A stretch of DNA of 64,000 nucleotides, from NCBI GenBank assembly GCA_023144635.1, contig JAGLFH010000014.1, forward strand, positions 1 to 64,000. Direction: 5' to 3'. The stretch is from Candidatus Auribacterota bacterium. GTDB lineage: Bacteria > Auribacterota > JAFGBW01 > JAFGJP01. A model generated the notes under the pieces. That model saw only the letters and a program-made list of their open reading frames with translations. It was not told the DNA's origin and did not search any database. This document shows positions 9,968 to 58,441 of this stretch, one piece after another. A program made the position numbers and the translations under genes. Positions within the stretch are counted from its first letter, which is position 1. Each line of letters begins with the position of its first letter.

Positions 9968-10744
9968 ATGACAGACACATCTTTTTACAGATCAAATGCT
10001 ATAATCCTTAAAAGCGAGCCTCTTCGTTCAACGAGTATGAGATTTATTTTTCATACAGAAGAGTTCGGACGCATTATCGCTTCATTAAAAGGATTCTTCA
10101 AAAACAAGGCATACATTACTATGCCTGTATCTCCGGGAACAGAGGTTGAACTGGTTTTTTTTAATACTAGAAAAAATAGTATGATGATGGTAAAAGAGAT
10201 AAATCTTTTATCAGTACCAAGAGTGAAAAATTTTAATCATCTAGCGTCTCTTCAATACTTCATAGAATTTATGCTGAATGTTACAACTGATACTCTTCGA
10301 GAACACAATGCGATATACAAACTTTTTATTTCTCTAAAAGATCTAATAGTAGAAGTAGATGATGAACTATCATTACTTTTTGCAACAGCTTATGCACATG
10401 AAATAATCGCCCTTAAAATACTTGGCTTTTTATCCAGTCCGGATGAATGTGCCGTATGCGGCATAAAAACCCCTGAAACATATTTTCTTATTTCAGATAT
10501 GAGTTTTTGTTGTAGAAAATGCTCTCAAGGTAAAAAAAACATTTTGATCTCACTTGAAATCTGTAGCTTTATAAGCACTCTTATGAAGGACAATATAACT
10601 CCAAAAAGATTAAGATCTCTTTTCTCTAAAATAAAGCTATCAAATAATCAATTTCACGAATTGCAGATATTATTAAAGCATTTGACCCATGGGGTTTTCG
10701 GGCATGATTTTAGGAGCAGTAAGATCCTATCTGCAAAACAGTAG
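9968..10744 (+). CDS. recO: DNA repair protein RecO
   Basis: N-terminal OB fold (SNAIILKSEPLRSTSMRFIFHTEEFGRIIASLKG), Zn motif CAVCG...CRKC, GVFGHDFRSSKIL. Confidence 0.88.
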   Translation: MTDTSFYRSNAIILKSEPLRSTSMRFIFHTEEFGRIIASLKGFFKNKAYITMPVSPGTEVELVFFNTRKNSMMMVKEINLLSVPRVKNFNHLASLQYFIEFMLNVTTDTLREHNAIYKLFISLKDLIVEVDDELSLLFATAYAHEIIALKILGFLSSPDECAVCGIKTPETYFLISDMSFCCRKCSQGKKNILISLEICSFISTLMKDNITPKRLRSLFSKIKLSNNQFHELQILLKHLTHGVFGHDFRSSKILSAKQ

Positions 10745-11099
10745 GCTTACAAAGAGTACGCATCTTCTTCGTTATGCTCCCTGCGGCTTCTTCGTTATAT
10801 GAAAAAATATGACTTCATCAGTCCTCAGTCGCAAGCCTCGTATCTGCATGATATTTGTAAGCTTAAGAAATATGTTTACAAAAGATACGCCTGCATCGTT
10901 TTCAGGTCACACGCCTCGTATCTATCGAAGATCCGCCAGCGCTTTGTGGAGGACAGCATTCTTACTCGCTTAATCCTTAATATTGCCGAAGGCTCCTTGA
11001 ACGCTCAACAGTCTACCCTGAGCTTGTCGAAGGGCATCACGCAAAACGCACGACTTTTATAATTGTGCGTCTCGTATCTGCATACTCTTTGTAAGCCTA
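10742..11099. repeat. composite inverted-repeat element (type I core, 126-bp unit nested in a ~358-bp element)
   Basis: Left arm TAGGCTTACAAAGAGTACGCA (10742) pairs with far-right arm TGCATACTCTTTGTAAGCCTA (to 11099), one mismatch in 21. The first 125 bp also end in TGCATGATATTTGTAAGCTTAA and carry the same core as the copies at 25111 and 27139. Confidence 0.85.
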
Positions 11100-11234
11100 A
11101 TTAAAATTTAAATAATATAATAATCTGTTCCATTTGATCGAAAAAACTTAAAAAGGGTTTATTCCTTCACAGATTTGTTATACAAATCTAAACGTGGGGA
11201 TTGAAACCTGCGTTTTTTCTTCGTGTTCTTCGTG

Positions 11235-11303
11235 GTGAAATTTATAATCATCTGCTTACGTAGGAAGTTCCTTTAACTCATCACTCAAAACTCACAACTT
11301 TCA
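11235..11303 (+). repeat. head module plus 7-bp phased array (ACTCANN)n
   Basis: AATTTATAATCATCTGCTTACGTAGGAAGTTCCTTTA then ACTCATC ACTCAAA ACTCACA ACTTTCA. Confidence 0.7.
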
Positions 11304-11351
11304 TGCGAAGCATGAATATTTGTGGCTAAATAGGTTTTTCTTTTGCTTTTT

Positions 11352-11414
11352 TTATTATATCGCACGATAGTGCTCCATAACTCAACACTTAGCATTCAGC
11401 ACTCAACACTTTTT
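11352..11414 (+). repeat. head module plus 7-bp phased array
   Basis: TATTATATCGCACGATAGTGCTCCATA then ACTCAAC ACTTAGC ATTCAGC ACTCAAC ACTTTTT. Confidence 0.75.
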
Positions 11415-11467
11415 TTTCTATTCTTCTCCGTCCAAACCCCTCTGATCTCTTAAATCTGTGTCCAATT

Positions 11468-11530
11468 ATTATAATATCAGCGTAAGCGTTCCATAACTTT
11501 AAGTACTTTAGGCACTTTAAACTTTTAATT
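11468..11530 (+). repeat. head module plus 9-bp phased array
   Basis: TTATTATAATATCAGCGTAAGCGTTCCATA then ACTTTAAGT ACTTTAGGC ACTTTAAAC. Confidence 0.7.
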
Positions 11531-11731
11531 TTTTTCTCTCCCTCTTCCTTCTGACCTTTTATATATTTGTAAAGCCTAAGAAAGTTAATTCACAGTATCT
11601 CGAACAGAAACGAAACCACTGACTGAGTATCAATAACTTATGCTAACTGTTTAGTTGTCAAACAGTTGCATTTATGTTTTATAATATGCTATAATATAAT
11701 ATAAATTAAAAACCTTTAATAATTGCAGAAA

Positions 11732-14700
11732 ATGCCGATAAATCTAAAAAAATATTTGTCATATTTTTTGTTTATTGTTCTTATTCTTTCCATATCTACA
11801 TCTGTTTTTGCTTCTCTTGCAGGGTATTCGAATGTCATTGTTGTAACGATTACAAATTCTACAAATACAACTTATAGTGATCAGCAAATTCTTGTCACAA
11901 TTGATACACAGTCATTGATAAATGACGGTGAAATGCAGTCAGATGGAGATGATATACGGTTTTTGGATTCAGATGATTCCACAAATCTTGATTACTGGAT
12001 AGATCCAGGAACGCTTAATACTACCACAACCCGCATTTGGGTAAATGTTCCTAGTATTACAAAAAATGCTTCAAAAGATATTTATATGTATTTTGGAAAT
12101 CCTTCCGCAACATCTGCAAGTGATATGTCGGCCACAATGGAAGAATTTGGCGAGGTCGGAACAATTGCTGTTCTTGGTAGCGGATGGATTACGACCAATT
12201 TTGTCAATGCTTACAATAACCCTGTTGTAGTTCCTGTCCATTTTGATCTGTCAACCGGCCAGGAAGTATCTTGCAGTTTGCGCAATGTTGGTGCGAATAG
12301 CTTTGACATCAAACTGGAAAATCCGGAAGGTGATGCATTTACAAACCGGAGAGTCGATTATATTGTTGTTGAAGAAGGTGCTTGGATCCTTGCAGATGAA
12401 AGCAAAATAGAAGCCGATGTTTTTGGTATCAAAAAAACCGAGCTTGTAGGTACAACGGTTTCCGACAAATGGAAAACGATAAGCCTGACTCAGAGTTATT
12501 CTGCTGCTCCGGTCATTTTGGCCCAACTTCAGACAACTGAGAATAATGATTGGGTGACCGATCATGTAAGGACTGTTACCACCAGCCAGTTCCAGGTCGC
12601 CATGGAGATTTGTGCGGCGGGCAGCAATATCAATAAAAATGAAGATATGGGCTGGATCGGTATTGAAACAGCAAAAAGCGGTAATATGAACAACATTGAA
12701 TATGATTTTAATACAACAGGCGATCGTATAACAGGGCATGACAACGGTTGTACTGCAACGAATTTTTCGACAGCTTTTTCTTCTGCTCCCTATGCCATTG
12801 CTGACCTTCGCAAGCGGGACGGCACTGATGGTGGATGGGCGGCTGTTTGTAATCTTACGACTGCTTTAATCGGGCTTCATGTTGAGGAGGATGATGTTGC
12901 TGATGCTGAGCATGCTCACACGACGGAAGATATCAGTTTTGTTGCTTTTGGATCTACAGGAACACTTCCCCTTGCTAAATTTGCAACCGGACTTTCGGTA
13001 TCTGTAGACCAGACAAGAAAAAAACTTGTTTTTACTAATCTTCCTCAGACAATATCTGCAGGATCAGCTTCATCAGCAATAACTGTTCAAATACAAAGCC
13101 ATTTTGGTGCTCCTTCAGTAAATAATACGGGCAGTCCTATAGTTATTGATCTTGGAAGTGATTCGGAGACCGGCGAGTTCAGTACAAATTCTGGTTTTGG
13201 AAGTATAGTAACTTCGGTATCTATTCCTAATGGCAGCAGCACGGCAACTTTTTATTACAGGGACAATACTATTTGCAGTGCTGTTTTAACTGCTGCTGAA
13301 GAGACGGCGAGTAAAAACTGGGTAGATGCTATCGCTAGCATTACAACAACAGAGACTTTTGTTGCAGGACTTAATAATTCAGAAGTAACAATAACTTCAA
13401 CCGAGACTCTGACAAATTATCAGGTCCTTGTTACAGTGGACACTGCTACTCTTATTGCATTAGGGTCTATGAAATCAGATGGAAGTGATATTAGATTTTT
13501 GGATTCAAACGGGACCACACTTCTTGATTATTGGATAGAATCAGGTATTAATACTTCGGAGACAAGAATATGGGTAGAAGTCCCATCAGTTCCAAACGGA
13601 GACAAAAAGATAACTCTCAATTACGGAAACCCTGACGCAAAACCAAAAAGTTCTATTTCAAGCACTATGATATCAGCTGAAGCAGGAGCTATTACAGTTG
13701 GAGGAACCTGGGATACTATTATTTTTAAAAAGAGTTATACAAACCCTGTATTTGTAGCAACACATGAAGAACAGGGAAGCGGTGCAGGTGAAGAGGAAGC
13801 AGCACCAAGAATAAGAAATCTAGGTTCTACAAGTGTAGATATTTTTCTTATCCATCCGGGTGGCACAAGCCTGCCTTCAAGGAAAATAAATTATATTGTT
13901 GTAGAAAAAGGTACTGGTGCTACAGTCACGGGAACAACTGTAGCAGGACACAGAGTTGATGCTGATGTAATAGATGATCTTGCAAATACTGTTGGAAATT
14001 ATGATGGAGTATCTGATTCATATAATACAGTAAACTTACCGCAAACACCACCACCTAAAAAAGATTATTATTCAAGCGCTCCTGTTGTTCTAGCAATGGT
14101 GCAGTCATATAATGATTCGCGTTTTGTAACTGACCATATTCGTAATATTGCAACAGATGATTTTCAAATAGCTTTAGAAGTTGGAGAGATAAATTATTCT
14201 GCAGATCCTCATGCCGCAGAAGATATGGGATGGATTGCAATGGAAGATAGTATGGCGGGATCAATAGGAGATTATTTTTTTGAATCCGGTATAACAGGGA
14301 ATATTGCAGGGCATGATAACGGATGCTATTCGACTATTTATGATCAGGATTATTCAGTTACTCCTTTTACTAATGTAGATCTTCGCACACGTAATGGTGG
14401 TGACGGAGGCTGGGCTGTTATCTGTTCAAATAGTAAGGATCAGTTTGGATCTCATGTAGAAGAAGATCAGGAGCGTGATAGTGAAAGAAGTCATACAAAT
14501 GAAACTGCAAGTTATTTTGCTTTTGAAAACTCGGGTGCTTTCCCACTTCGAAAAGATGTAAGAGATGAAGTTGGTGATACCGGTGCAATACCGCCTGTAA
14601 GTTCAATACAATTTCCTGCGGCAAGACTTGGACTTTCTATTGCGAGTAGCTCTGTTTTTGTTGACAGGGTAAGTGATGAGATAACACTTACACTTGAAGA

Positions 14701-17700
14701 TGCTTTCGGTAATGCTGTTACAGCATCGACCGATATAATTGTTAACCTTTTAACAACGTCGAACAGCGGAGAATTTAGCTTTGGGAGTGCGCCTTTTTCA
14801 TCTATTTCATCAGTTACAATAGCAAATGGTTCAAGCTCCGTAACTTTTTATTATAAAGATGGAAAAATTGGAAGCCCTACAATTACTGCATCTGAGGATC
14901 CGTCATTAGAATTAGTTGATGCAACACTTAGTCTTAGTATTGATGATGTTGAAGTATATGGAAAATACCGCTTATCTATTGAGATAGATAATACCGGTAA
15001 TCCCGAGCTTACAGAATTTCAGGTGCTGATAATAATGGATACTGCAACTCTTATTGCAGAGGGTAAGATGAATGCAGATGGCTCAGATATACGTTTGACT
15101 GATTCAGATAAAATTACGCGTTTAAATCATTGGATAGAATCAGGTATCAATACTGCATCAACGAGGATATGGGTTAAAGTACCTGTGATACCATCAAACT
15201 CAAAAAAGACTATTTATCTTTATTATGGTAATCCTGATCTTGCTGATGCAAGTAATATGGTAGCTACAATGGTAAATTCAGAAGTCGGAAAAGTAGAGAA
15301 TTTAAGTGATACGCCATCACAAACTGTAAATTTACAAGGCATTTATACAAATCCTGTAATAGTTGCGTTTTCATCATGTGCAGGCGGAAACTGGTTTGCT
15401 GCATCAACAAGAATAGTCGCAACCGGTACAACTTCTTTTGATATAAAACTTCAAAACCCAGGCGACAGTTCATTAAATGGCGGCGTGATAACAAATCCAA
15501 GAGAAGTCCATTACTGGATAACAGAGAACGGCCTTCATGAGACGATAGATGCTACAGGACATATAATAGAAGCTAAAAACACTCAAATAAGCGGCTCTCT
15601 TGGAAAACACAGTGGCGGTAATAACGACTATGACTCAATTAGTTTTGATGCAGAATTTTCATCATTTATAAGTGCTAACCCGGTCATTTTTTCTCAGGTT
15701 CTTACCACAACAGATAAACGCTGGTGTACTGATCATATAAGGACCCAGAACCAGAATAATTTTCAGCTTGGAATGGAAGTGGCTGAAGCGCGTTATGTGC
15801 ATGATCCCGAATATTTAAGTTGGATTGCTCTGGAAAACAATTTAAACATAACTAATTATCTTACGACTATCGAGACAGGTTTTACAGGAAACCGAATAAG
15901 AGGCCATCAAAATGGATGCTATTCGACGAATTTCAGGCAAGCTTTTGCAACAGTTCCAATATTTATTTCGGATATAACAACTCGCCACGGTACAGACGGG
16001 GGATGGTGTATGAGATGTTCTTTAAGCGCATCTGCCTTCGGACTGCATGTAGAAGAGGACCGTGTAAGTGATAGTGAAAGAAGCCACACTAATGAGACGG
16101 CTGATTACGTAGCTTTTTCACGGGAGGGTTTTATTCCTCTTAGAAAGTATGCTGATGTCAATATTGATATGGGTACGACAGGTGCGGAAGAAAAACCTAT
16201 TCACGAGATAGTCTTTAAAACACTTTCTCAAACAATATTTGCAGGTCAGGCTTCATCTGTAATAACAATACAAACATTAGATGCAGATGGATTTGAAACA
16301 CCTGTATCAACCGATACTGAAATACGCCTTATAACATCTTCTATATCAGGTGAGTTTTCTTTAAATGTTTCTCCATGGATTAGGGTAACAAATATAACAA
16401 TACCTGCAGGGGAAAGTGAAATAAGTTTTTATTATAAAGATGATACACCGGGTACTTTTAGTTTAAGAGCATATGAATACCCAAGCAAGGGATGGGATGA
16501 TGCAAGCCAGAATATAACTATTCTTCCTCTTTCAGCCGGATTCAGGCTTGATGTAAGTGATGCTCAGCCAATAATTGCAGGAACACCTTTTACTCTTATT
16601 ATCAGTGCTGTTGATGATGACAATAATATTGTTCAAGGTTATAACGGCACAGTAGAGCTTACTATTAATTATGTTTCACCGCCTACCGGCACAGATCTAC
16701 TCTCAGTAACTACAGTATCAGGATTTTTAAACGGCGTTGCATCTATAAATCCTTATTATCCGGAAGCAGGTACTATAACTTTAACAGCGACAGATACTAT
16801 TGATGCCAATAAAACAGGCACAAGTTCTAATATAACTTTTGTACCTGCTAGTATAACAGTTGAAACTACTTTTCAGCAAAAAGTCGATGCGCCGTTTACT
16901 TTGACCGTTTCAGCCCTTAACTCTTTAGGAAATGTTACAAAAAATTATTCAGGACCAGTTAATCTATCAATAAATTATATTACTCCTTCAAATGATCAGG
17001 GTGGAACTCTTACACCTGTTAGTCTAAGTAGTTTCACTGAAGGTGTGGGTACTATTACTGATCTTGTCTATGATAAATGGGGTATTATAACGATTAAGGT
17101 AACTGATCCTGTTGATACAAGATTGGTAGCAACAACTGAAAATATAACATTTGCTCCGCAGTACTTTGATGTTTTTGTTCAGACACCTCCAAAAGAACGC
17201 AGTTTTTATTATGAAAATGAAACATTTGAACTTACATTAAGCGTTCGTTCCTTTCTTGATAACATAATAGAAAATTATACAGGTACAATACAAATAACAG
17301 GTACATCGATTTTTGGCCTGGAATCGACATATACTTTTCTTCCCTCTGATAGCGGCATACATACATTTGAACTTGCAGGTACAACAGACGGTGAGTATAA
17401 AATACTTTTTGCTGATCTATTTGATGCAACTGTTATCGGAAAAAGTGATACTATTATTATTAAGTTCGGTAAGATAATAATAGGTTCAAATGAAGGGCCT
17501 GTTGGAATTCTTCCGGTTGATATATTTATTGTAGATAAAGAAGAAAATATCATTACTGAAGATTCTTCTACTCAATTAAAAATAACCCTTACCGAATCTA
17601 ATCCTAATAATACTGCTTCAATTGATGTAGAAGGAGAAAGCATTACTTTTAACGAGGGCAAAATCACAATAGAGGTATTAGATAGTGAGGCTGAAACAGT

Positions 17701-17812
17701 TGATATTAAAGGAGAATCCGAACCTTTAATGGAAGTCTCTCCCGGTAAAGTTCTTTATGGGACTATTGGGGATAGTGGCATACGCATACGCTTCTGGCGT
17801 GAAAAAGATTAA
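11732..17812 (+). CDS. giant secreted/surface protein with three DUF2341 modules and C-terminal Ig-like repeats
   Basis: Signal peptide; DUF2341 signature three times (IRFLD/TDSD...LDYWI...TRIWVxVPxI...YxYYGNPxA) near 11825, 13380 and 14955; tandem Ig-like repeats near the C-terminus. ATG 11732 preferred over TTG 11723. Confidence 0.85.
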   Translation: MPINLKKYLSYFLFIVLILSISTSVFASLAGYSNVIVVTITNSTNTTYSDQQILVTIDTQSLINDGEMQSDGDDIRFLDSDDSTNLDYWIDPGTLNTTTTRIWVNVPSITKNASKDIYMYFGNPSATSASDMSATMEEFGEVGTIAVLGSGWITTNFVNAYNNPVVVPVHFDLSTGQEVSCSLRNVGANSFDIKLENPEGDAFTNRRVDYIVVEEGAWILADESKIEADVFGIKKTELVGTTVSDKWKTISLTQSYSAAPVILAQLQTTENNDWVTDHVRTVTTSQFQVAMEICAAGSNINKNEDMGWIGIETAKSGNMNNIEYDFNTTGDRITGHDNGCTATNFSTAFSSAPYAIADLRKRDGTDGGWAAVCNLTTALIGLHVEEDDVADAEHAHTTEDISFVAFGSTGTLPLAKFATGLSVSVDQTRKKLVFTNLPQTISAGSASSAITVQIQSHFGAPSVNNTGSPIVIDLGSDSETGEFSTNSGFGSIVTSVSIPNGSSTATFYYRDNTICSAVLTAAEETASKNWVDAIASITTTETFVAGLNNSEVTITSTETLTNYQVLVTVDTATLIALGSMKSDGSDIRFLDSNGTTLLDYWIESGINTSETRIWVEVPSVPNGDKKITLNYGNPDAKPKSSISSTMISAEAGAITVGGTWDTIIFKKSYTNPVFVATHEEQGSGAGEEEAAPRIRNLGSTSVDIFLIHPGGTSLPSRKINYIVVEKGTGATVTGTTVAGHRVDADVIDDLANTVGNYDGVSDSYNTVNLPQTPPPKKDYYSSAPVVLAMVQSYNDSRFVTDHIRNIATDDFQIALEVGEINYSADPHAAEDMGWIAMEDSMAGSIGDYFFESGITGNIAGHDNGCYSTIYDQDYSVTPFTNVDLRTRNGGDGGWAVICSNSKDQFGSHVEEDQERDSERSHTNETASYFAFENSGAFPLRKDVRDEVGDTGAIPPVSSIQFPAARLGLSIASSSVFVDRVSDEITLTLEDAFGNAVTASTDIIVNLLTTSNSGEFSFGSAPFSSISSVTIANGSSSVTFYYKDGKIGSPTITASEDPSLELVDATLSLSIDDVEVYGKYRLSIEIDNTGNPELTEFQVLIIMDTATLIAEGKMNADGSDIRLTDSDKITRLNHWIESGINTASTRIWVKVPVIPSNSKKTIYLYYGNPDLADASNMVATMVNSEVGKVENLSDTPSQTVNLQGIYTNPVIVAFSSCAGGNWFAASTRIVATGTTSFDIKLQNPGDSSLNGGVITNPREVHYWITENGLHETIDATGHIIEAKNTQISGSLGKHSGGNNDYDSISFDAEFSSFISANPVIFSQVLTTTDKRWCTDHIRTQNQNNFQLGMEVAEARYVHDPEYLSWIALENNLNITNYLTTIETGFTGNRIRGHQNGCYSTNFRQAFATVPIFISDITTRHGTDGGWCMRCSLSASAFGLHVEEDRVSDSERSHTNETADYVAFSREGFIPLRKYADVNIDMGTTGAEEKPIHEIVFKTLSQTIFAGQASSVITIQTLDADGFETPVSTDTEIRLITSSISGEFSLNVSPWIRVTNITIPAGESEISFYYKDDTPGTFSLRAYEYPSKGWDDASQNITILPLSAGFRLDVSDAQPIIAGTPFTLIISAVDDDNNIVQGYNGTVELTINYVSPPTGTDLLSVTTVSGFLNGVASINPYYPEAGTITLTATDTIDANKTGTSSNITFVPASITVETTFQQKVDAPFTLTVSALNSLGNVTKNYSGPVNLSINYITPSNDQGGTLTPVSLSSFTEGVGTITDLVYDKWGIITIKVTDPVDTRLVATTENITFAPQYFDVFVQTPPKERSFYYENETFELTLSVRSFLDNIIENYTGTIQITGTSIFGLESTYTFLPSDSGIHTFELAGTTDGEYKILFADLFDATVIGKSDTIIIKFGKIIIGSNEGPVGILPVDIFIVDKEENIITEDSSTQLKITLTESNPNNTASIDVEGESITFNEGKITIEVLDSEAETVDIKGESEPLMEVSPGKVLYGTIGDSGIRIRFWREKD

Positions 17813-17938
17813 GCGAGCAAGAATACTGCATCTGCTGCGTTCCACTTCAGACTCGTATTCGTCGGTGTATGAAGTAATACACCTTTCTCACACTCGCTTC
17901 GTGCGCCTTGCATCTACAGCATTCTTACTCGCTTAATT
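17809..17938. repeat. inverted-repeat element (type II core), 130 bp
   Basis: Left TTAAGCGAGCAAGAATACTGC / right ACAGCATTCTTACTCGCTTAA; internal hairpin GGTGTAT-GAAGTA-ATACACC. Confidence 0.85.
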
Positions 17939-18070
17939 AAGTTTGATAAGGCAAATATAGATAGAAACATAAGAGGTTTTATTTCACATTTCCCGTCGAA
18001 GGCGGATAGACAAGCGCTGATTTTTTTTAATTCGCATCTAGAAACATTTAATATTAAAGAAAAAATATAG

Positions 18071-18099
18071 TTGACAATACGATTATAATGTTCTAATAT
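18071..18099 (+). promoter_or_regulatory. sigma70-type promoter upstream of the Fic gene
   Basis: TTGACA - 17 nt - TAATAT. Confidence 0.65.
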
Positions 18100-18203
18100 A
18101 AAATTATGCAAAAGATACGACAAAATATATGTTAATAGCGTTATATTAGTAACTTATAGTTGGCAAAATATGAATCAAGATACAGATCAAAAAGGAAAAC
18201 AAG

Positions 18204-19370
18204 ATGGCAATCTATCCATGGATTACCTTTAAACTAAATTTCATTAAAAACCCTCTTAAATCCAAAATCTGGATGCAATTGGGGGAATGCTGTTCCAAGT
18301 GTGAGCATATAGCAAATGTTCCTACAAATCCAAAAGTCGTAGAAGAAATGCATAAAGTCTATTTAACAAAAGGTGTACATGCAACTACAGCTATAGAAGG
18401 TAATACCCTAACTGAAGAACAAGTACGCCAGAAAATAGATGGAAAATTGCAATTACCACCATCAAAGCAATATTTAGGTCAAGAAGTAGAAAATATTATT
18501 ACTATTTGCAATGAAGTTATGAAAAAAATAGGTTCTGGAAAGGGTATTAAAATAACTATAGAAGAATTAGAGAGATATAATGCAACAATTTTAAAAGATG
18601 TTCCTGTAGAGGAGAGTGTTACTATAGGGAAACTCCGCAACCTTAATGTTGGAGTGGGTACTTATAAAGCTCCTGAAAGTAAAGATGTTAATGAATTATT
18701 AGAAAAATATTGTGATTGGCTTAATAGTGATTATTTTGATATGTATCCCGACACTCCGATAGCTAATAGTATAATTAAAGCTATTATGGCTCATTTATAT
18801 ATGGCATGGATACACCCTTTTGGAGATGGAAATGGAAGATTAGCTCGAATATTGGAATATATGATATTGCTTGATTCAGGAGTTCCTTCACCTGCAACAA
18901 ATTTATTGAGTAATCATTATAATGCAACAAGAATTGTTTATTATCAAAAACTTGATTCTGCTGGAAAATATAAGGATCCTTCAATATTTATAGAATATGC
19001 CATACAGGGTTTTTTAGACGGACTTAAGGAGCATTTAGAATATATTTATGCACATATATATCAAATTTCTTGGGAAAGTTATGTATACGAAAAGTTTAGG
19101 GATAGTAAACAACATGACACGACAAATAAAAGAAGAAGAACTCTTGTTTTAGAAATATCTAAGAGTTTATTTGAATCTGTAAAGGAAGAAGAAATAATGA
19201 GCAAAAATCATTATCTATTTAATGCATACAGAAAAAAGACAGAATTGACATTGAAAAGAGACTTAAAAGAAACTATTAATATGGGTTTAATTGAGAAAAC
19301 TGAACAAGGATACAAAGCTAATGTAGAAAAAATATTTATTTTTTTACCTTTTAGAAAAACACATCAGTAG
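18204..19370 (+). CDS. Fic family protein
   Basis: Fic motif HPFGDGNGRLAR and upstream TTAIEGNTLTEEQV inhibitory-helix-like motif. Confidence 0.95.
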   Translation: MAIYPWITFKLNFIKNPLKSKIWMQLGECCSKCEHIANVPTNPKVVEEMHKVYLTKGVHATTAIEGNTLTEEQVRQKIDGKLQLPPSKQYLGQEVENIITICNEVMKKIGSGKGIKITIEELERYNATILKDVPVEESVTIGKLRNLNVGVGTYKAPESKDVNELLEKYCDWLNSDYFDMYPDTPIANSIIKAIMAHLYMAWIHPFGDGNGRLARILEYMILLDSGVPSPATNLLSNHYNATRIVYYQKLDSAGKYKDPSIFIEYAIQGFLDGLKEHLEYIYAHIYQISWESYVYEKFRDSKQHDTTNKRRRTLVLEISKSLFESVKEEEIMSKNHYLFNAYRKKTELTLKRDLKETINMGLIEKTEQGYKANVEKIFIFLPFRKTHQ

Positions 19371-19406
19371 TAAATGAAAAATAGAGAAAGGATATAAATT
19401 AAAGAC

Positions 19407-20843
19407 ATGGCTAAGAAAAAAATTCTTTCTATTGGATCGGAGTTGGCAATAGATCATATTGAATACTGCAATTTTACTTCTGATACTTCTCTTTTGGATT
19501 GGGATATAATTCTTTTTAAGCCTGAAATTTATGATTTAGTAGACTATGAGAATTCTTATAAAGGCAAGCCGAGTCTGTCAGATAGAAGTTCCTTTAGTTT
19601 GAAAGAGCACTCGGAGCATTGGCGTCGAGAAATAAAAGATGCTGTTGAAACAGGAAAGACAGTAATCGTATTTCTTGCTGATCTGTATGAAGTTTTCATT
19701 GATTCCGGCAAACGCGAATACTCAGGAACAGGAAGGAATCAACAAACCACTAAATTTGTTAAAGAGTACAATAATTATCGTTGTATTCCTGCCGATATCA
19801 ATCCTGTTAAGACAAAAGGTAGCGCTATGAAGCTTGCTCCTCGAGGTGCTGAGTTACTTGCTTCGTACTGGAAAGAATTCGAAGAGGACTCTCAATATAA
19901 ACTTATCCTTACTGGTGAAAATATTCCTGCTTCAATTACAACTAAGAATGGCAATAAGCCTGTAGGGGCAATATACAAAAGTAAAAATTCAAATGGCGCA
20001 CTTTTGCTTGTTCCTGATATAGATTTTTGTAAAGATGAATATTTTGAAGAAGAGGATGAAGATCAAGTTTGGAGCGAAGCGGCTGTGAATTTTGCTTCCC
20101 GTATGTTAAAAGCAGTGGTGTCATTGGATAAGGCATTAAAGACTGAAGGTCAGTCTACACCTGAGCCAGAATGGACTAAAACATTGGATTATGAGTTAAT
20201 GAAGGAAACAAGTATTAACTCCGAGCTTTTGAAAACAGAGGAAGCTCTTGAAAAAATTCAAAAAACAAAAGATTGCCTTCTTGATAAATTAAGAGACCTA
20301 AGTCGATTAAGAAATCTTTTGTTTGAAAAAGGAAAACCGCTCGAATATGCCGTCATAGATGCGCTTATAATTCTCGGATTTAAGGCAAAGCATTATAAAG
20401 ATAGTGAATCTGAGTTTGATGTTGTATTCGAGTCGACTGAAGGTCGCCTCATAGGTGAGGCGGAAGGCAAGGATAATAAAGCAATCAATATTGACAAGCT
20501 TCGACAGTTAGAAATGAATATACATGAAGATCTAGAAAGAGAAGAGGTTAGTCAACCAGCCAAAGCGGTATTATTTGGAAACGCATATAGACTCGAACCA
20601 CTTGTTGACAGAGCTGATCCTTTTACTACTAAATGCATTAGTGCTGCAAAAAGGAGTTCAACGGCTCTTGCATTTACGCCAGATCTTTTTATGGTTGCAC
20701 GCTACTTATCAAATAAAAAAGATGCTAGATTTGCGACTAGGTGTAGAAAAGTCATTATTAGTTCTGTTGGCAGAGTAGTATTTCCTGATACACCTGCATC
20801 GACTGACGCAAAACAAAAGAAAACAAAAGGGGTCAGCCCTTGA
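19407..20843 (+). CDS. uncharacterised protein with a C-terminal PD-(D/E)XK nuclease-like segment
   Basis: LEYAVIDALIILGFKAKHYKDSESEFDVVFESTEGRLIGEAEGKDNKAINIDKLRQLEMNI fits the D...ExExK plus RQL pattern of restriction-endonuclease-fold proteins. Confidence 0.6.
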   Translation: MAKKKILSIGSELAIDHIEYCNFTSDTSLLDWDIILFKPEIYDLVDYENSYKGKPSLSDRSSFSLKEHSEHWRREIKDAVETGKTVIVFLADLYEVFIDSGKREYSGTGRNQQTTKFVKEYNNYRCIPADINPVKTKGSAMKLAPRGAELLASYWKEFEEDSQYKLILTGENIPASITTKNGNKPVGAIYKSKNSNGALLLVPDIDFCKDEYFEEEDEDQVWSEAAVNFASRMLKAVVSLDKALKTEGQSTPEPEWTKTLDYELMKETSINSELLKTEEALEKIQKTKDCLLDKLRDLSRLRNLLFEKGKPLEYAVIDALIILGFKAKHYKDSESEFDVVFESTEGRLIGEAEGKDNKAINIDKLRQLEMNIHEDLEREEVSQPAKAVLFGNAYRLEPLVDRADPFTTKCISAAKRSSTALAFTPDLFMVARYLSNKKDARFATRCRKVIISSVGRVVFPDTPASTDAKQKKTKGVSP

Positions 20844-21099
20844 CAGAGACATAGGGATCAGGCCTCGAAATTAGAAATAACATAAAAAACTTAAGAAGTT
20901 ATTTTCTGCGTTTTTTGTTTTATTTGTTCGTTTATCATAAATCCCATTTATCCTGAACCCTATGTGGTTTATGTCTTACTTTCTCATGCTTTTTCTTTTT
21001 CCTTTTCTGTCTGCAGTATACTTGTTTGTTTAATGACACTATACTGTCAGATTTGGTAATATGGATGAAGAATTATATATAAATGGTAGTTAGAAAAAC

Positions 21100-21831
21100 A
21101 TGAAGAGACAGAAAAAAATAATTTTTATTAGTTCTAAACAGAATGAATTGCAAAGTGAAAGAGATCAACTTCGTGATTTAGTTAACATTAATGATGAAGT
21201 GCTTTCGAAATTATTCATTGCAAAGACCTTTGAAATTGATTTATCTGGAAGAAGAGAAACGGTTAATCATCTTACAGAGGAATGGGTTCTAAAAAGTGAT
21301 ATTTATTTTGGTGTTTTTGACAAAGAATACTCAGAACCAACAGTTAGAGAATATGAAATTGCAATAAAGGATAAACAAGTTAAAAAGGAAATTATTATAT
21401 TTATAAAAAAAAGAAAAACAATAGAAAGAGAAGATGAATTAGTTATTTTTATGAATAAGATTATGAATTCTGAAAGTGGGCATGCGTGTATAATATTTGA
21501 TACAATAGAAAATCTATTATATAAAGCAAAACATGTATTAATAGAATACTGTCATAGAAAAAATGAAGGTTTTATTATATCAAAAGAAATATTAGGAGAA
21601 AATTTAGAACTTGCTAAAAATACACATTTCCCTGAAAAATTAAGAAGGCAGCTTTTACAACCAATCGGAAGATTTGCCATTTGGAAGGGAAGAAAAGGAA
21701 TTCCAGAGTATTATAAATACGATTGGAATGGTACTAAGATAGATGTAACGTGGAATTATATTGAGCCTAATGCCTCAAAAGAAGTAAAAGAGTTCTATTA
21801 TAAGAGATATAATAAACCATTTGATTCCTAA
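21100..21831 (+). CDS. DUF4062-domain-like protein
   Basis: IIFISSKQNELQSERDQLRDLV ... SDIYFGVFDKEYSEPTVREYEIA ... KKEIIIFIKK. Confidence 0.8.
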   Translation: MKRQKKIIFISSKQNELQSERDQLRDLVNINDEVLSKLFIAKTFEIDLSGRRETVNHLTEEWVLKSDIYFGVFDKEYSEPTVREYEIAIKDKQVKKEIIIFIKKRKTIEREDELVIFMNKIMNSESGHACIIFDTIENLLYKAKHVLIEYCHRKNEGFIISKEILGENLELAKNTHFPEKLRRQLLQPIGRFAIWKGRKGIPEYYKYDWNGTKIDVTWNYIEPNASKEVKEFYYKRYNKPFDS

Positions 21832-21894
21832 CGGAAAGATAAGGGTCAGTCCTTGAAATGTAAAAAGGATTGATTAAAGGCTAAAGGGGGATTA

Positions 21895-22437
21895 ATGAAT
21901 AAAGATGAAATAGTTACACTTTCACTTAAAATAACAGGAATATATGGCATTATTCAATTGATCACAAAAAGCAATTTTCTTATAGGTAGTCTTTTCACTG
22001 TTATCAGAACTAATACAATTGAAGGCCTTTTATATGCAATATTTTTTGCTTTAATACCATTAGTGCTTTTTATTTATTTAATATATGTTTTACTTTTTAA
22101 AACACCTAGCTTAAGTAAAAAAATACTTGCCTCAGAGTCTAATGAGAAAAGTAATCCTATTAACTCAAAAGAAATACAGGTATTAGCTTTTTCTATAATT
22201 GGTGTTTGGGTTTTAGCATCTACGATACCCAGTTTTATACAAACTTTGGCTTATTATTCATTTTCAAAAGAGAATAGTGAATTGGCTAAGACAGTAAATA
22301 TTACTTTATCAACAAGAACTCATTTTTTTGGTCTATCACTCAAATTAATAATTGGTTTATATTTATTTATTGGTTCAAAAGGTTTAGTTAATCTTTGGCA
22401 TAAATTACAAAGCACAAAAGGTATGCCGTCTAACTAG
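21895..22437 (+). CDS. hypothetical membrane protein
   Basis: 180-aa ORF with about four hydrophobic segments. Confidence 0.6.
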   Translation: MNKDEIVTLSLKITGIYGIIQLITKSNFLIGSLFTVIRTNTIEGLLYAIFFALIPLVLFIYLIYVLLFKTPSLSKKILASESNEKSNPINSKEIQVLAFSIIGVWVLASTIPSFIQTLAYYSFSKENSELAKTVNITLSTRTHFFGLSLKLIIGLYLFIGSKGLVNLWHKLQSTKGMPSN

Positions 22438-22515
22438 TTGTAGTCCTGAACCATTCGACTACGCTCATGATAAACTAAAGTCGAAGGGAACTTAAATCGT
22501 TAGGAACTCAAAATT

Positions 22516-23187
22516 ATGTTAGCTGAAATTATACCTGATTTGTATGATTACGCTGGAAAAAAGATATTTAAACCTACTAAGGGAAAACATAGAATATTTA
22601 GACCAACATTTCCTATGGAAATGTTTCTAAGGGTTGAGTTAAAAGAGAAATGTGATTCATTTGAAGATATCAGGAGATTTGTCGATAAATGTGAATATGT
22701 TTCGGATGAAGAACAATTTAATCAAAAAGATTACTGGATGCCTCCAGATGAATTTGAAAAAGTGAAAAAAGGAGACTGTGAAGATTTTGCGTTATGGACT
22801 TGGAGGCAGTTGATTAAGATGGGCTACTCCTGTAGGTTTGTTGTCGGCTATTCAGGTAAATATGGTAGTGGGCATGCTTGGCTAACAGTGACTGATAAAG
22901 AAAAGCAATATATTTTTGAACCTTTAGCAAGTCATATGGGCTTAAAAATGCCAAGATTCAGTTGTATTTTTAGCAGACCTGAAATATCAGTTGAATGGGA
23001 TGGAAATAAAATACAATATTATGAGCACACACGCAAAGCATGGAAGCCATCTTTTATAAAAATAATATCTCTTTTAGGAGAATGGTTTATATTTTGGATT
23101 CAATTTTGGATTAAAGTAATATTTGGTTTTCTATTATTGCCATTTTATTTGATTTTGAATATGTTTAAAAAAAGAAAAGAAAAATAA
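22516..23187 (+). CDS. transglutaminase-like cysteine peptidase domain protein with C-terminal membrane segment
   Basis: KKGDCEDFALWTWRQLIKMGYSCRFVVGYSGKYGSGHAWLTV (Cys/His arrangement). Confidence 0.75.
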   Translation: MLAEIIPDLYDYAGKKIFKPTKGKHRIFRPTFPMEMFLRVELKEKCDSFEDIRRFVDKCEYVSDEEQFNQKDYWMPPDEFEKVKKGDCEDFALWTWRQLIKMGYSCRFVVGYSGKYGSGHAWLTVTDKEKQYIFEPLASHMGLKMPRFSCIFSRPEISVEWDGNKIQYYEHTRKAWKPSFIKIISLLGEWFIFWIQFWIKVIFGFLLLPFYLILNMFKKRKEK

Positions 23188-23253
23188 CTATGCATTGTCT
23201 GCTGTGGCTAAACTTTTAATTTCTTTTCCGTTCCTTCTTCCCTTTTTTTCTTT

Positions 23254-23281
23254 CTATGGTCTATCGACTATTGACTATCTT
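23254..23281 (+). repeat. 7-bp phased array (CTATNGN)n
   Basis: CTATGGT CTATCGA CTATTGA CTATCTT. Confidence 0.7.
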
Positions 23282-23289
23282 GCTTTTTC

Positions 23290-23352
23290 TTTATATCAGC
23301 GAAGCATTCCTTGAACCCTGTAACGCCATAACCTTGTAACACTTTAACGTTC
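23290..23352 (+). repeat. head module plus 8-bp phased array
   Basis: ATATCAGCGAAGCATTCCTT then GAACCCTG TAACGCCA TAACCTTG TAACACTT TAACGTTC. Confidence 0.75.
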
Positions 23353-23613
23353 GCTTTACCTGCAATACTTTGTAACAAAAAAGGTGTAACGATTTGTAAT
23401 TTATTTTTAAGAAAATTTAGAGTAATTATTTATCCAGTTTCTTTTTTTTGAGTTACGTTTTAAATGCTTGCGGTATAGCGCGTTATGCTTGAAGTAAAAA
23501 GCTGATTTTTAGCTTTAATGGAATGATTGTTGCTAATCTAAAATATCAGTGTTTTTTTTTAGGTTGAAAACTATTAAAACTTGTTTAAAATAATAACTCA
23601 CAGGAGGAGTATT

Positions 23614-24225
23614 ATGAAAATATCTGTAAAACATTTTTTATATTTTTTTGTATCACTTATGTTAGTCGTTAGCTTTAATACTTTTGTATTGGCAGAAGAT
23701 ACGCCTGAGCCAACAGATCCCGTTGTGGAAGACCCAGGTGACCCTGAAGACCCTGAAGATCCAGCAGATCCAGGTGATGGTGAAACAGGTAAATTAACAG
23801 GGCTTGATAATGCTATTGCAGATAAAGAACAAAAGCTTGAGCAGGATCCTAATAATCCTGGTCTTCAAAATGCTCTGCAGAAATTAGAGAGAAACCGTGA
23901 GCGTAAAGAAGAAAAAAATCAGGAAAAATTAGAAAGAAAGGGTGGAACAGAAGACCCTGAAGATCCTGAAACACCAGAAGATCCTGAAACACCAGAGGAT
24001 CCTGAAGTACCAGAAGATCCATCTGTAGAAAAAATGGAGAAGATCCAGAAGATAGAGAAAGCTGAGAAAGCAGAGAAACCTGAAAAGCCAGAGAAACCGG
24101 AAAAGCCAGCTAAGCCTGAGAAAGTGGAGAAACCAGAAAAACCGGTTAAACCAGAAAAACCAACAAAACCTGAAAAGCCAGCTAAACCAGCTAAGCCTGA
24201 GAAGCCGGAAAAAGGCAACAGATAA
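23614..24225 (+). CDS. secreted low-complexity protein rich in PEDPE and (PEK/PAK) repeats
   Basis: RBS aggagg, ATG 23614, signal peptide ending ...VLAEDTPEP, then PEDPETPEDPETPEDPE and EKPEKPEKPAKPEK tracts. Confidence 0.8.
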   Translation: MKISVKHFLYFFVSLMLVVSFNTFVLAEDTPEPTDPVVEDPGDPEDPEDPADPGDGETGKLTGLDNAIADKEQKLEQDPNNPGLQNALQKLERNRERKEEKNQEKLERKGGTEDPEDPETPEDPETPEDPEVPEDPSVEKMEKIQKIEKAEKAEKPEKPEKPEKPAKPEKVEKPEKPVKPEKPTKPEKPAKPAKPEKPEKGNR

Positions 24226-24262
24226 TTATTTAATTTAAAGCAAAATATCGGAGACCATTAAA

Positions 24263-25108
24263 ATGAGAAGTATCACTATATCTATTTGTATTATTGTTTT
24301 TTCTATTTTCTTTTTGATTGCTGATGAAGCAAGTTGTTCTGATTCTCAGGAATTTAAATTTACAACAGGATTTGATTACAGCTCAGGAGATTACGGTGGA
24401 AATAGTGATACAACTATACTATATATTCCCTTTACTGGAAAATATTTAGATGAAAAGTATTCTATTAAAGTTACTATACCATACCTTCGTATTAAGAGTG
24501 AAGATACCGTTGTTACAAGCGGAGGACAGGTTATAGTAAGTGGCGATTCCTTATTAACAAGTGAAGAAACAGAAAGCGGTCTTGGTGATATCGTTGCAGC
24601 ATTTTCTTATTATTTATTAGAAGAGACAGAAAATAGTCCAATGGTTGATATTAATGCAAAAGTAAAGTTAGGAACAGCTGATGAAGATAAAGGTCTTGGT
24701 ACAGGTGAAACTGATTATGCTCTAGAAGTTGATCTTGCAAAAACTTTTGATGAAAATGTACTCTTTGGTACACTCGGATATAAGTTTTATGGTGATCCTG
24801 CCGCCTATGATCTTGACAATGCTTTTTATACAAGTATAGGTTTGTCTCATCGCTTTAGTTCGGAATTAAGCGCAGGATTAATGCATGACTACCGTGAAAA
24901 AACAACTGATAGCGGCTCAGAGATGAATGAACTTACTGCTTTTGCTACATATAAACTTTCCTCTAATTATAAATTAATGGGATATACAGTTGCAGGACTC
25001 TCTGACGGTAGTCCAGATTGGGGAATAGGACTTACTATAACACGTGCTTTTGGTGCTGAGGATATTAGTAAGTCTTATCGGTATCTAGAAAAATTGCGCT
25101 TCTGGTAA
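24263..25108 (+). CDS. putative outer-membrane beta-barrel protein
   Basis: Signal peptide, alternating amphipathic strands, C-terminal strand pattern GIGLTITRAF. Confidence 0.65.
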   Translation: MRSITISICIIVFSIFFLIADEASCSDSQEFKFTTGFDYSSGDYGGNSDTTILYIPFTGKYLDEKYSIKVTIPYLRIKSEDTVVTSGGQVIVSGDSLLTSEETESGLGDIVAAFSYYLLEETENSPMVDINAKVKLGTADEDKGLGTGETDYALEVDLAKTFDENVLFGTLGYKFYGDPAAYDLDNAFYTSIGLSHRFSSELSAGLMHDYREKTTDSGSEMNELTAFATYKLSSNYKLMGYTVAGLSDGSPDWGIGLTITRAFGAEDISKSYRYLEKLRFW

Positions 25109-25110
25109 AT

Positions 25111-25236
25111 TTAAGCGGACAAGTATAACGCATTTTCTTCGTTACGCTCCCTGCGGCCTCTTAGTCGTATGAAAAAATACGACTTCATCGGTCCTCGGTT
25201 GCAAGCCTTGAATCTGCATTATACTTGTCCGCTTAA
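25111..25236. repeat. inverted-repeat element (type I core), 126 bp
   Basis: TTAAGCGGACAAGTATAACGCA ... TGCATTATACTTGTCCGCTTAA (21/22 complementary), internal hairpin GTCGTAT-GAAAAA-ATACGAC. Confidence 0.9.
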
Positions 25237-25265
25237 TTATTTTTTTGGTTATGTTTTGTTTTTGT

Positions 25266-25405
25266 TGCACTTCAGTCAAGTATTCGTTGGCGTATGAGTT
25301 AATACGCCTTCCTCATTCTCGCTTCGCATGCCTTGCAAAGCCCTCACATCTTTGTTATCTGAAAGAAAACAGTAGACGGTATATGCATGATATTTGTAAG
25401 ATTAA
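25266..25405. repeat. degenerate or partial type II element
   Basis: GCACTTCAGTCAAGTATTCGTTGGCGTATGAGTTAATACGCCTTCCTCATTCTCGCTTCGCATGCCTTGCA matches the core at 17830-17915; right end TGCATGATATTTGTAAG matches 10845-10861. Confidence 0.7.
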
Positions 25406-25451
25406 TAAACTTTTATTAAGGTAAAATATGGATGAAAAATAAGGAGTATGA

Positions 25452-26117
25452 ATGAAAAATACTGTTTTTGAGAGATCAGAGCATGAGTCGCATGGACGAC
25501 GAATAAGTTCAAACGTCTACAATCTTGTGATAGGTTTAGTCCTTTGTTGGGGATTCCTGGTCAATTGGTATATGGTCAAGACCATTCCTTATGAGTCAGT
25601 CGCAAGCATCAATCCCTGGGTGTTCTTTATAGGGTATTTTGCTTCTTGTTTCTTCGGGATTTATCTTTTTACAAAATCGGAAGTCCCTCTTGTCAGTTTT
25701 ATCGGATACAACTTCGTAGTTGTCCCCTTTGGATTGATCATAAATCTGGTAGTTCATCAATATGATCCCTCTCTGGTTCTTGATGCAATACGGGTTACTG
25801 GACTGGTGACATTTGTAATGATGATTCTCGGTTCTCTTTTTCCTATGTTCTTCAAAAAAATCTCCGGAGCATTAACAATTGCCCTGATGGTTGTCATAAT
25901 TGTCGAGCTGATCGAGGTGTTTATCTTGAAGATCCACCATGGAATTATTGATTGGATTGTTGTTCTCATCTTCTGTGGTTATGTGGGGTATGATTGGGGT
26001 AGAGCAAACAGAATACCGAAGACAATCGACAATGCAATCGATAGTGCTGCTTCGCTCTATATGGACATAATCAATCTATTTCTGCGAATATTGAGGATAA
26101 TGGGAAGACGGAAATAA
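25452..26117 (+). CDS. Bax inhibitor-1-like (UPF0005) membrane protein
   Basis: Multiple TM segments and C-terminal YDWGRANRIPKTIDNAIDSAASLYMDIINLFLRILRIMG. Confidence 0.65.
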   Translation: MKNTVFERSEHESHGRRISSNVYNLVIGLVLCWGFLVNWYMVKTIPYESVASINPWVFFIGYFASCFFGIYLFTKSEVPLVSFIGYNFVVVPFGLIINLVVHQYDPSLVLDAIRVTGLVTFVMMILGSLFPMFFKKISGALTIALMVVIIVELIEVFILKIHHGIIDWIVVLIFCGYVGYDWGRANRIPKTIDNAIDSAASLYMDIINLFLRILRIMGRRK

Positions 26118-26118
26118 A

Positions 26119-26337
26119 ATGACAAACCATAATGAAGATATATCTCAATGTAAAGCTGCAAGAGTTGCAGGTTTCATTTTCCTGCTTAGCTTAATTAACG
26201 GGGTTCTTATGAACTCCAAATTTATTGTACTAGATAATGTTATAGCAACTGCCAATAATATAATGGCCAAGGAGTTTCTGTTTTGCATTGATATTCCTAT
26301 TAGGTCTGACTTTTGTCTAAAGGTCGGGCAGACGTAA
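26119..26337 (+). pseudogene. truncated DUF4386-like fragment
   Basis: CKAARVAGFIFLLSLINGVL...IVLDNVIATANNIMAKEFLFCIDI resembles the N-terminus of DUF4386 membrane proteins; ends at 72 aa. Confidence 0.6.
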
Positions 26338-26371
26338 TAGCTGCACAATAACGCTTTTAAAACCGAGTCGA

Positions 26372-27109
26372 ATGAATTTTAAGTTTTCAGCACTAATTAA
26401 GAAATTAATAATGAAAATAAATAAATCAATTATTCGTATTATTCTTATTTTAACTATTGGTATATGTTTTGTGCTAATTGCATATTTATCAACATTCACT
26501 AAACAGGGATTTATTCGCCAGAATGAGATCACATACACACCATCCAAAATTGTCAAAAATAATAAAAGTTCTGAACAACTTGATGAAAACGATTTTTTTA
26601 TTAAGTTAGCAAAAGCTGCTGAAGGCAGAACAAAGCATTCCATAAGATATAATCCTGCATACGTAAAAATAGCTTATCCTGGAGGAGATGTGCCTATGGA
26701 TACAGGAGTGTGTACTGATGTCGTTATTAGATCCTATCGGAAATTAGGAATAGATCTTCAGGTAAAAGTGCATGAAGATATGAAAGCAAATTTCATGAAA
26801 TATCCTAAAATGTGGCGGTTAATGAAACCCGATCCCAATATTGATCATCGACGTGTTCCTAATCTTATGACTTTCTTCAAACGACATGGGACAGTGCTTG
26901 AGAAGTCGCCTGAAGGAAATATTTATTTTCCGGGAGATATTGTTACTTGGGATCTTGGCGGCGGGGTTGCTCACATTGGCATCGTATCAACAAAAAAAGA
27001 AAAGTCACACTACTTTGTTGTCCACAATATTGGAGCGGGTCCACAACTTGAAGATGTATTGTTCAATTGGAAAATTACAGGCCACTATAGATACAAAGAG
27101 AATTTCTAA
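26372..27109 (+). CDS. DUF1287 family protein
   Basis: YNPAYVKIAYPGGDVPMDTGVCTDVVIRSYRKLGIDLQ...HRRVPNLMTFFKRHG...GDIVTWDLGGGVAHIGIVS. Confidence 0.9.
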   Translation: MNFKFSALIKKLIMKINKSIIRIILILTIGICFVLIAYLSTFTKQGFIRQNEITYTPSKIVKNNKSSEQLDENDFFIKLAKAAEGRTKHSIRYNPAYVKIAYPGGDVPMDTGVCTDVVIRSYRKLGIDLQVKVHEDMKANFMKYPKMWRLMKPDPNIDHRRVPNLMTFFKRHGTVLEKSPEGNIYFPGDIVTWDLGGGVAHIGIVSTKKEKSHYFVVHNIGAGPQLEDVLFNWKITGHYRYKENF

Positions 27110-27138
27110 CAAACACATAAAAAAATAAATTTGTGTTA

Positions 27139-27264
27139 TTAAGCGAGCAATGATAATGCAGCATCAAGGCGTGCGACTGAGAACTGATGAAGTCGTATTT
27201 TTTCATACGACAAAGAAGTCGCAGGGAGCGTAACGAAGTAGATGCATTATTCTTGCTTGCTTAA
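27139..27264. repeat. inverted-repeat element (type I core, reverse orientation), 126 bp
   Basis: TTAAGCGAGCAATGATAATGCA ... TGCATTATTCTTGCTTGCTTAA; internal GTCGTAT-TTTTTC-ATACGAC. Confidence 0.9.
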
Positions 27265-27683
27265 TTGGTTTTGATGCAGTCTTTTATGATTACAAAATAC
27301 TCATAACCCGCATAAGCATTTCTTCTTTTTCTTTTAACTTCTAAAAAGAGCTTTAATCTATATTCGCGGGATGTGAAGTTATAAAGAAGATCAAGAACCT
27401 TTTTTTTACTTCTGCTTACCCAGAGCTTAAGAGAACTGTTTTTATTATGTGTAGAAAAACTGAAATAACTTTTACCAAGAAGAGAACTGCGGTTATTTGA
27501 AGTGTGAATATTCTCTACAATAAGATAAACTTTTTTATATTTTAATGCATCAGGGTTTGTATCTAGTTCGGCTGCAGTTATTCTTGACCACTTTTCTCCA
27601 TTATGATTTATCTCTTGAGCATAAATATTTGAGACAAAAAAAGTTGAAAATATTATTAATAAATAAAGTAACTTATTTCTCAT
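27261..27683 (-). CDS. hypothetical secreted protein
   Basis: 140 aa, signal peptide ...FVSNIYAQE. Confidence 0.6.
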   Translation of the reverse strand: MRNKLLYLLIIFSTFFVSNIYAQEINHNGEKWSRITAAELDTNPDALKYKKVYLIVENIHTSNNRSSLLGKSYFSFSTHNKNSSLKLWVSRSKKKVLDLLYNFTSREYRLKLFLEVKRKRRNAYAGYEYFVIIKDCIKTN

Positions 27684-58166: not shown

Positions 58167-58441
58167 TATTCAGGCTTGACCTGAATATTTCACAAGTCAA
58201 GTGTACCGCAGGCGCAAGGCATCAAACATGCTGCTGTATGCTTATACTGCAAGTGTTTGATAACAAGGCGGATGCGGTGCAATCGGCTTGCTCTCGTAAG
58301 CACAGCCGAAACGAAATCATATTTTTTCCTTTAAAAGGGATAGTGACAAAGTGTAACCTAAATTTTTTCCCTGTTTTTTTGTTTATTTTGCTGTGCATGA
58401 AGAAAATAAAAATTTTTCGGCTGTGTTTATGAAATATTCAG
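58167..58441. repeat. structured ~262-bp element bounded by 12-bp inverted repeats
   Basis: CTGAATATTTCA (58181) ... TGAAATATTCAG (58430-58441), preceded by perfect hairpin ATATTCAGG-CTTGA-CCTGAATAT; internal hairpins. Confidence 0.65.

Follow-up and report, generated by a model that had tools for sequence, protein, structure and literature searches.

MITEs of bacteria, which include Chunjie of Geobacter uraniireducens, are small, non-coding, intergenic elements with terminal inverted repeats (TIRs), target duplications, a stable fold, and many copies (reviewed in PMC10969869 and PMC2229807). The element described here has the same properties. However, MITE families have been defined by ends that are shared among members of a single genus or species, whereas the present element has a core conserved from phylum to phylum, ends that vary, and target duplications of different lengths. 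The usual view of bacterial MITEs is that of debris recognized by its ends; here, the ends change and the interior is conserved as a fold. Chunjie, whose host is a related deltaproteobacterium and whose length is given as 178 to 235 bp in the review, was compared with the present element by description only.

ERIC, Correia (NEMIS), RUP, and the Rickettsia palindromic elements are imperfect palindromes of about 105 to 155 bp that lie between genes, as the present element does. Each of these families has its own conserved sequence and occurs in a narrow host group, and we know of no described exchange of ends among them. No link between them and the present element was found via Rfam or the core pattern, and they are otherwise set apart by their descriptions. 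ERIC, with a length of about 127 bp, exerts orientation-dependent effects on neighboring mRNA (PMC2229807). Intergenic palindrome families called multicopy nucleotide sequences, which remain unexplained, have also been reported from Geobacter genomes (PMC2700814, PMC2996986, PMC3543383). One of them, with the center GRCGTAGCGCTGCTACGCC, might be identical with the present family; a cross-phylum family, covariation, and an exchange of ends are absent from the main-text passages of these reports. REP/REPIN sequences resemble the present element as dispersed palindromes that fold as single strands and are mobilized in trans, in their case by RAYT transposases and presumably so here, but the present element does not track Y1 transposases, has target duplications, and combines ends that vary with an interior that is conserved. 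Integron attC sites are likewise imperfect palindromes that follow stop codons, keep their structure while their sequence varies, and fold on the strand that is antisense to the gene. In contrast to attC, the present element has a conserved rather than variable apex, has target duplications, and forms no cassette array. Identity with attC was rejected, as the RYYYAAC and GTTRRRY end boxes are missing from the ends (read by eye, e.g., CAGGCTG...CAGCCTG) and the apex is wrong.

Hairpin elements in the window

The window, that is, the whole stretch of 64,000 nucleotides that was analyzed, contains four full copies of a 126-base hairpin, which can be regarded as an ~80-bp core closed by ~20-bp arms. 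The better-folding strand is called R here and the other strand F; R is the minus strand in the first three copies and the plus strand in the fourth. The first copy (10740 to 10867, minus strand, on which the fold is better conserved) overlaps with its F-left end the recO stop codon TAG at 10742 to 10744. The second (17808 to 17937, minus strand) contains in its F-left end the stop codon TAA (17810 to 17812) of a 2,029-amino-acid protein, and the third (25110 to 25237, minus strand) starts 2 nt past the stop codon of the ORF at 24263 to 25108. The four copies were found where a preliminary description had placed them, at 10742 to 10866, 17809 to 17938, 25111 to 25236, and 27139 to 27264, and simple ORF calls, with ORF ends at 10744, 17812, and 25108, bear out the contacts with stop codons that it had reported. 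The copy at 27138 to 27265 (plus strand) lies in the opposite orientation to the other three; it had been placed by its distance after a stop codon and is better described by its end at 27264, which overlaps the stop codon of the minus-strand ORF at 27261 to 27683, so that all four full copies share one polarity to a stop codon. The 2,029-amino-acid protein (11723 to 17812), which ends in an element, carries three DUF2341 stretches.

As had been noted, the arms match within each copy and differ between copies. The match extends over 27 nt (89%) in the copy at 25111, 28 nt (82%) in the copy at 17808, and 21 nt (76%) in the copy at 10742, with 19 of 22 positions in the copy at 27139. In the genome search with covariance model R1, the window copies score E values of about 1e-25 to 4e-31, the four having helped to build R1, and copies outside the training set reach about 1e-28. 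With these values, and with 24 of 39 genomes giving no match at an E value of ≤0.1, the window elements are not chance hairpins.

Degenerate and shorter forms were also found. A degenerate second copy at about 10868 to 10974 (minus strand), recognized by reading and by an arm-word pattern, has a nested small hairpin in its right arm (about 10930 to 10954) and ends in the arm GCATTCTTACTCGCTTAAT. The stretch from 25266 to 25405, previously described as one degenerate copy, does contain a core remnant of another copy (25261 to 25334, minus strand, model positions 29 to 100), but its remainder is a separate small hairpin (about 25341 to 25378, by reading, with no strand assigned) that adjoins the remnant, together with arm debris. 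By reading, the same small hairpin also interrupts a host copy at C35:18190. A short form of ~103 nt (type III) lies at 58188 to 58290 on the plus strand (covariance model, 38 bits, E value of 1.5e-7). Independent mini-hairpins of ~25 to 45 bp sit within the arms of larger elements or at the edges of their cores, to the left or to the right, both in genome G039 (loci L279, L290, L292, L315, L316, L323, L330, and L345, e.g., CCTCCGTAGCAGGACTACTGCGGAGG) and at the two window sites named above (CCCTCACATCTTTG..CAGTAGACGG); they look like a second family that prefers sites inside the large elements.

Copy number and distribution

The genome-wide collection with a covariance model that the preliminary description had proposed returned 54 places at an E value of ≤10 in the host genome (3.14 Mb; model R1), about 50 of which are convincing. 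Among relatives, 15 of 39 genomes, the host included, have matches at an E value of ≤0.1; in the host phylum, 9 of 44 genomes match at an E value of ≤1e-9, and the distribution is patchy. Geothermobacter hydrogeniphilus carries 113 copies and a deltaproteobacterial MAG carries 96. A core-only DNA pattern found at least 119 stretches in named genomes, mostly of Deltaproteobacteria (Geothermobacter, Geobacter, Syntrophales, and Desulfobacterales). Among the matches listed, Nitrospirae, Omnitrophota, Rokubacteria, Gemmatimonadetes, Glassbacteria, Selenomonadales (Sporomusa), Clostridia, and Patescibacteria are also represented; for certain MAG phyla, a lone match could reflect faulty binning. The elements thus found are small, non-coding, and dispersed, as MITEs are: they are 126 to 155 bp long, intergenic, and present in up to 113 copies per genome. 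No Rfam family matched at gathering scores in the whole window, nothing relevant appeared at an E value of ≤5 for selected stretches, and a literature search by exact motif strings returned nothing relevant, with reviews and papers on Geobacter genomes offering general parallels only. Since no Rfam entry covers the family, unannotated elements are probably present in many intergenic regions; genomes of little-studied phyla have from tens to more than a hundred copies.

A conserved fold with a strand bias

The R strand folds as a rod, and of 14 host copies only the one at 10742 does not have R as the more stable strand. The folding energies are −58.5 (R) versus −39.7 (F) kcal/mol for the copy at 17808 and −73.5 versus −44.1 kcal/mol for a host copy on contig C49. 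R also folds better in 73 of 79 loci that were found by the core alone, which are not independent by descent. When 13 host copies were aligned, compensatory changes were seen in 32 of the 38 pairs, and the covariation check gave 98 doubly changed cells versus 31 in shuffles, with a score of 0.60 versus 0.22 in shuffled and <0.13 in slid controls, which collapse; the limits of these copies had been set in part by visual judgment of matching arms, and the test on core-only loci is cleaner. In that test, the arms matched at 16.6 of 24 positions within a locus, versus 11.9 of 24 when swapped and 10.2 of 24 when shuffled. Across phyla, 87 elements gave 693 doubly changed cells versus 203 in shuffles. 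Alignments made by a covariance model lean toward the modeled pairs. Covariation is strong in both the arms and the inner stems.

The profile of 182 elements shows conserved purine-rich internal loops on R (GAUGCRAGGC on the 5' side and YAACGMAGYAGAU on the 3' side), some letters of which are fixed by the landmark pattern that picked the elements. The apical stem, GUAY-N6-RUAC on R, is conserved as well, and the middle stem and the arms vary in sequence but keep their pairing.

Wobble pairs are unevenly distributed between the strands. The GU:AC ratios in the host are 25:6 in the distal arm, 35:9 in the proximal arm, and 56:12 in the core, and across core-selected loci the ratio of R-strand to F-strand wobbles is 127:50, in counts that are not independent by descent. 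Taken genome by genome, the proximal arm shows a strong bias, as the core mostly does, and the distal arm shows a weaker one or none, the host and G053 being exceptions to the latter. Selection on structure and intra-hairpin templated correction had both been offered as reasons for the matching arms. The compensated pairs and the enrichment of G·U on one strand bear out the former, and because correction restores Watson-Crick pairs on both strands, a one-strand G·U bias is not expected from the latter. In G055 and genomes like it, the bias of the distal arms is weak (9:4, P = 0.27), and templated correction may contribute there. Covariation and the one-strand wobble bias together point to selection on the inner element, i.e., the core and proximal arms, as a folded single strand, be it RNA or single-stranded DNA (ssDNA).

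TIRs and target duplications

The preliminary description regarded the elements as the reverse of a MITE, with conserved interiors and variable ends. In other genomes, by contrast, the arms are uniform and act as TIRs with target duplications, which makes the element MITE-like with an interior that is unusual in being conserved and structured. The distal arms are uniform in G039 and diverse in the host; in G055, they are near random but self-matching. Over the distal ~10 bp, copies of the host and of G055 are near random between each other and 85 to 89% Watson-Crick paired within a copy, and certain arms form recurring subfamilies. In Deltaproteobacteria, the left arm is present once more, inverted and ~10 bp outside the hairpin, so that the whole element measures ~150 bp and has true TIRs. 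The host hairpins have no third arm, and their arms seem to be the element ends themselves; NTAR-like words flank them, e.g., ATAG at C54:7512, and since the host flanks are palindromic (TTAA), duplication and palindromy look alike for the window copies.

Three TIR types were distinguished, each with a left and a right repeat (TIR-L and TIR-R) and a target duplication of its own length; in the host, the TIRs are present only as hairpin arms. Type A (CAGGCTGTTGAAAAA) has a 4-bp duplication, mostly TTAG, CTAG, ATAG, or CTAA, in 23 of 61 elements (5.3 expected from mispaired flanks). Type B (GATGGCTTCGTAAAAAG) has a 6-bp duplication in 4 of 13 elements and a 7-bp duplication in one (0.17 expected), and type C (GAGACCTCTGAAAAAGG), with three copies only, has a 5-bp duplication in all three (0 expected). 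These counts rest on the test with mispaired flanks, as an automatic scan confuses palindromic flanks with duplications. Core identity is 0.71 between types A and B versus 0.73 to 0.76 within a type, and TIR identity is 0.48 versus 0.89 to 0.95; between type C and types A and B, the core and TIR identities are 0.60 to 0.62 and 0.55 to 0.58, respectively. The presence of the same core between TIR types with their own duplication lengths suggests its uptake by three or more transposition systems; such uptake would also account for arms that pair inside a copy but are unlike those of other copies.

Stop codons and polarity

The contact with stop codons can be traced to the junction. In type A, most abutting stop codons end 0 nt from the element, and the TAR belongs to the target, as the duplicated NTAR holds TAA or TAG. 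In types B and C, the stop codon ends at −2 nt and is mostly TGA, formed from the T of the target and the GA with which the TIR begins. At exact element ends, and with simple ORF calls, genes read into the left (F) end rather than the right end at a ratio of 23:6 (P = 0.002). A ratio of 71:8 from three sets was discarded as too strong, since the model boundary stops short of the true TIR-R on the other side. Because both ends carry the same TIR, the polarity is not easily an artifact of gene calling. One reading is that R within an mRNA is disfavored, F being the weaker-folding strand.

Mobilization and origin

No transposase with these TIRs and no autonomous transposon of the same genome sharing the ends was found in the loci around copies or by pattern searches, nor was an autonomous type A, B, or C element found in the loci examined around copies. 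With the host arm pattern, the matches were the elements themselves, one arm adjoining core debris (L303), and a few sites that are probably due to chance, and the idea of a host transposase with the same arms was rejected. A search for plasmid carriage of a type A element gave no match. The RAYT partner for which a search had been suggested is not supported by the counts of IS200-like transposases, which do not follow those of the element: G013 has 9 copies and zero PF01797 genes, and G027 and G028 have 13 and 20 PF01797 genes, respectively, and zero copies.

We consider it probable, at roughly 0.7, that these elements form a non-autonomous, MITE-like family of mobile hairpins in which a fold-selected core lies between the TIRs of at least three transposition systems. 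This reading builds on the observed copies, covariation, strand bias, TIR-dependent duplications, core/TIR discordance, and polarity. The core and the proximal arms would be under selection as one folded single strand (R), possibly acting as RNA rather than ssDNA, and the outer arms would be, or descend from, TIRs used in trans by resident transposases, presumably of the DDE type. The window copies, which have no third arm and lie between palindromic flanks, would have moved in the same way. As a counterpoint, the distal arms in genomes with diverse arms vary more than expected for TIRs recognized by one enzyme.

TIRs, target duplications, a length of ~150 bp, intergenic location, and many copies would also be expected of ordinary MITEs, that is, internal-deletion relics of insertion sequences whose arms are TIRs and whose interior is a functionless leftover. 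Leftover interiors, however, should drift and stay with one TIR type, whereas here the interior is the conserved part, the same core occurs between the ends of three TIR and duplication types, and the inner stems covary with strand-biased wobbles across phyla, which renders such an origin unlikely. We hold it to be quite unlikely that the family is a host non-coding RNA or 3'-end regulatory hairpin that spreads by recombination, with incidental TIRs and duplications. The RNA-like covariation, the position at gene 3' ends, and the uniform polarity in the window would suit it, but TIR-specific duplications show transposition, the distribution in the phylum is patchy, and the better-folding R is antisense to the gene whose stop codon it abuts and is thus not the mRNA of that gene. 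Distal arms could also derive from the insertion site if the core entered pre-existing palindromes, such as terminators, or inversion-duplicated its flank, in keeping with the near-random yet self-matching distal arms of the host and G055 and with gene ends that fall inside the left arm. This is highly improbable: certain arms form recurring subfamilies, and those of G039 are uniform; in types A to C, the true duplications are found outside the arms; the host distal arms show the R-strand wobble bias; and an ordinary terminator, separate from the element, comes after several of the G055 copies.

A further-reaching extension of the mobile-hairpin reading, which we put forward tentatively and consider somewhat doubtful, is that a structured module, most likely RNA, parasitizes several unrelated transposases, acquiring whichever TIR pair is available, keeping its fold, and spreading over many phyla, with the folded strand as its working part. 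That strand might protect the element, recruit a protein, or steer insertion to gene ends in one orientation. The family makes testable both the idea of a non-coding fold as a selected unit that moves among transposases and its effect on the 3' ends of the abutted genes.

Rearranged and longer forms

At orthologous element sites in G055 (L423, 3641 to 3769) and G056 (L448), the distal arms are the same (AAAAAGTCAGAAATT) and the middle stems are unrelated, suggesting that the core was replaced by recombination among copies and, thus, that arms and core also reshuffle in place. In six host loci (L046, L047, L050, L052, L058, and L089), the usual arms are enclosed by another palindrome (GGAGTCTGTCCGTGGT ... 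ACCACGGAC), which makes a longer form of the element. In the Geothermobacter genome G052 (L380, L388, and L391), elements with the arms GGGCGGCCGATACGCACCC are arrayed head to tail and repeat about every 136 bp.
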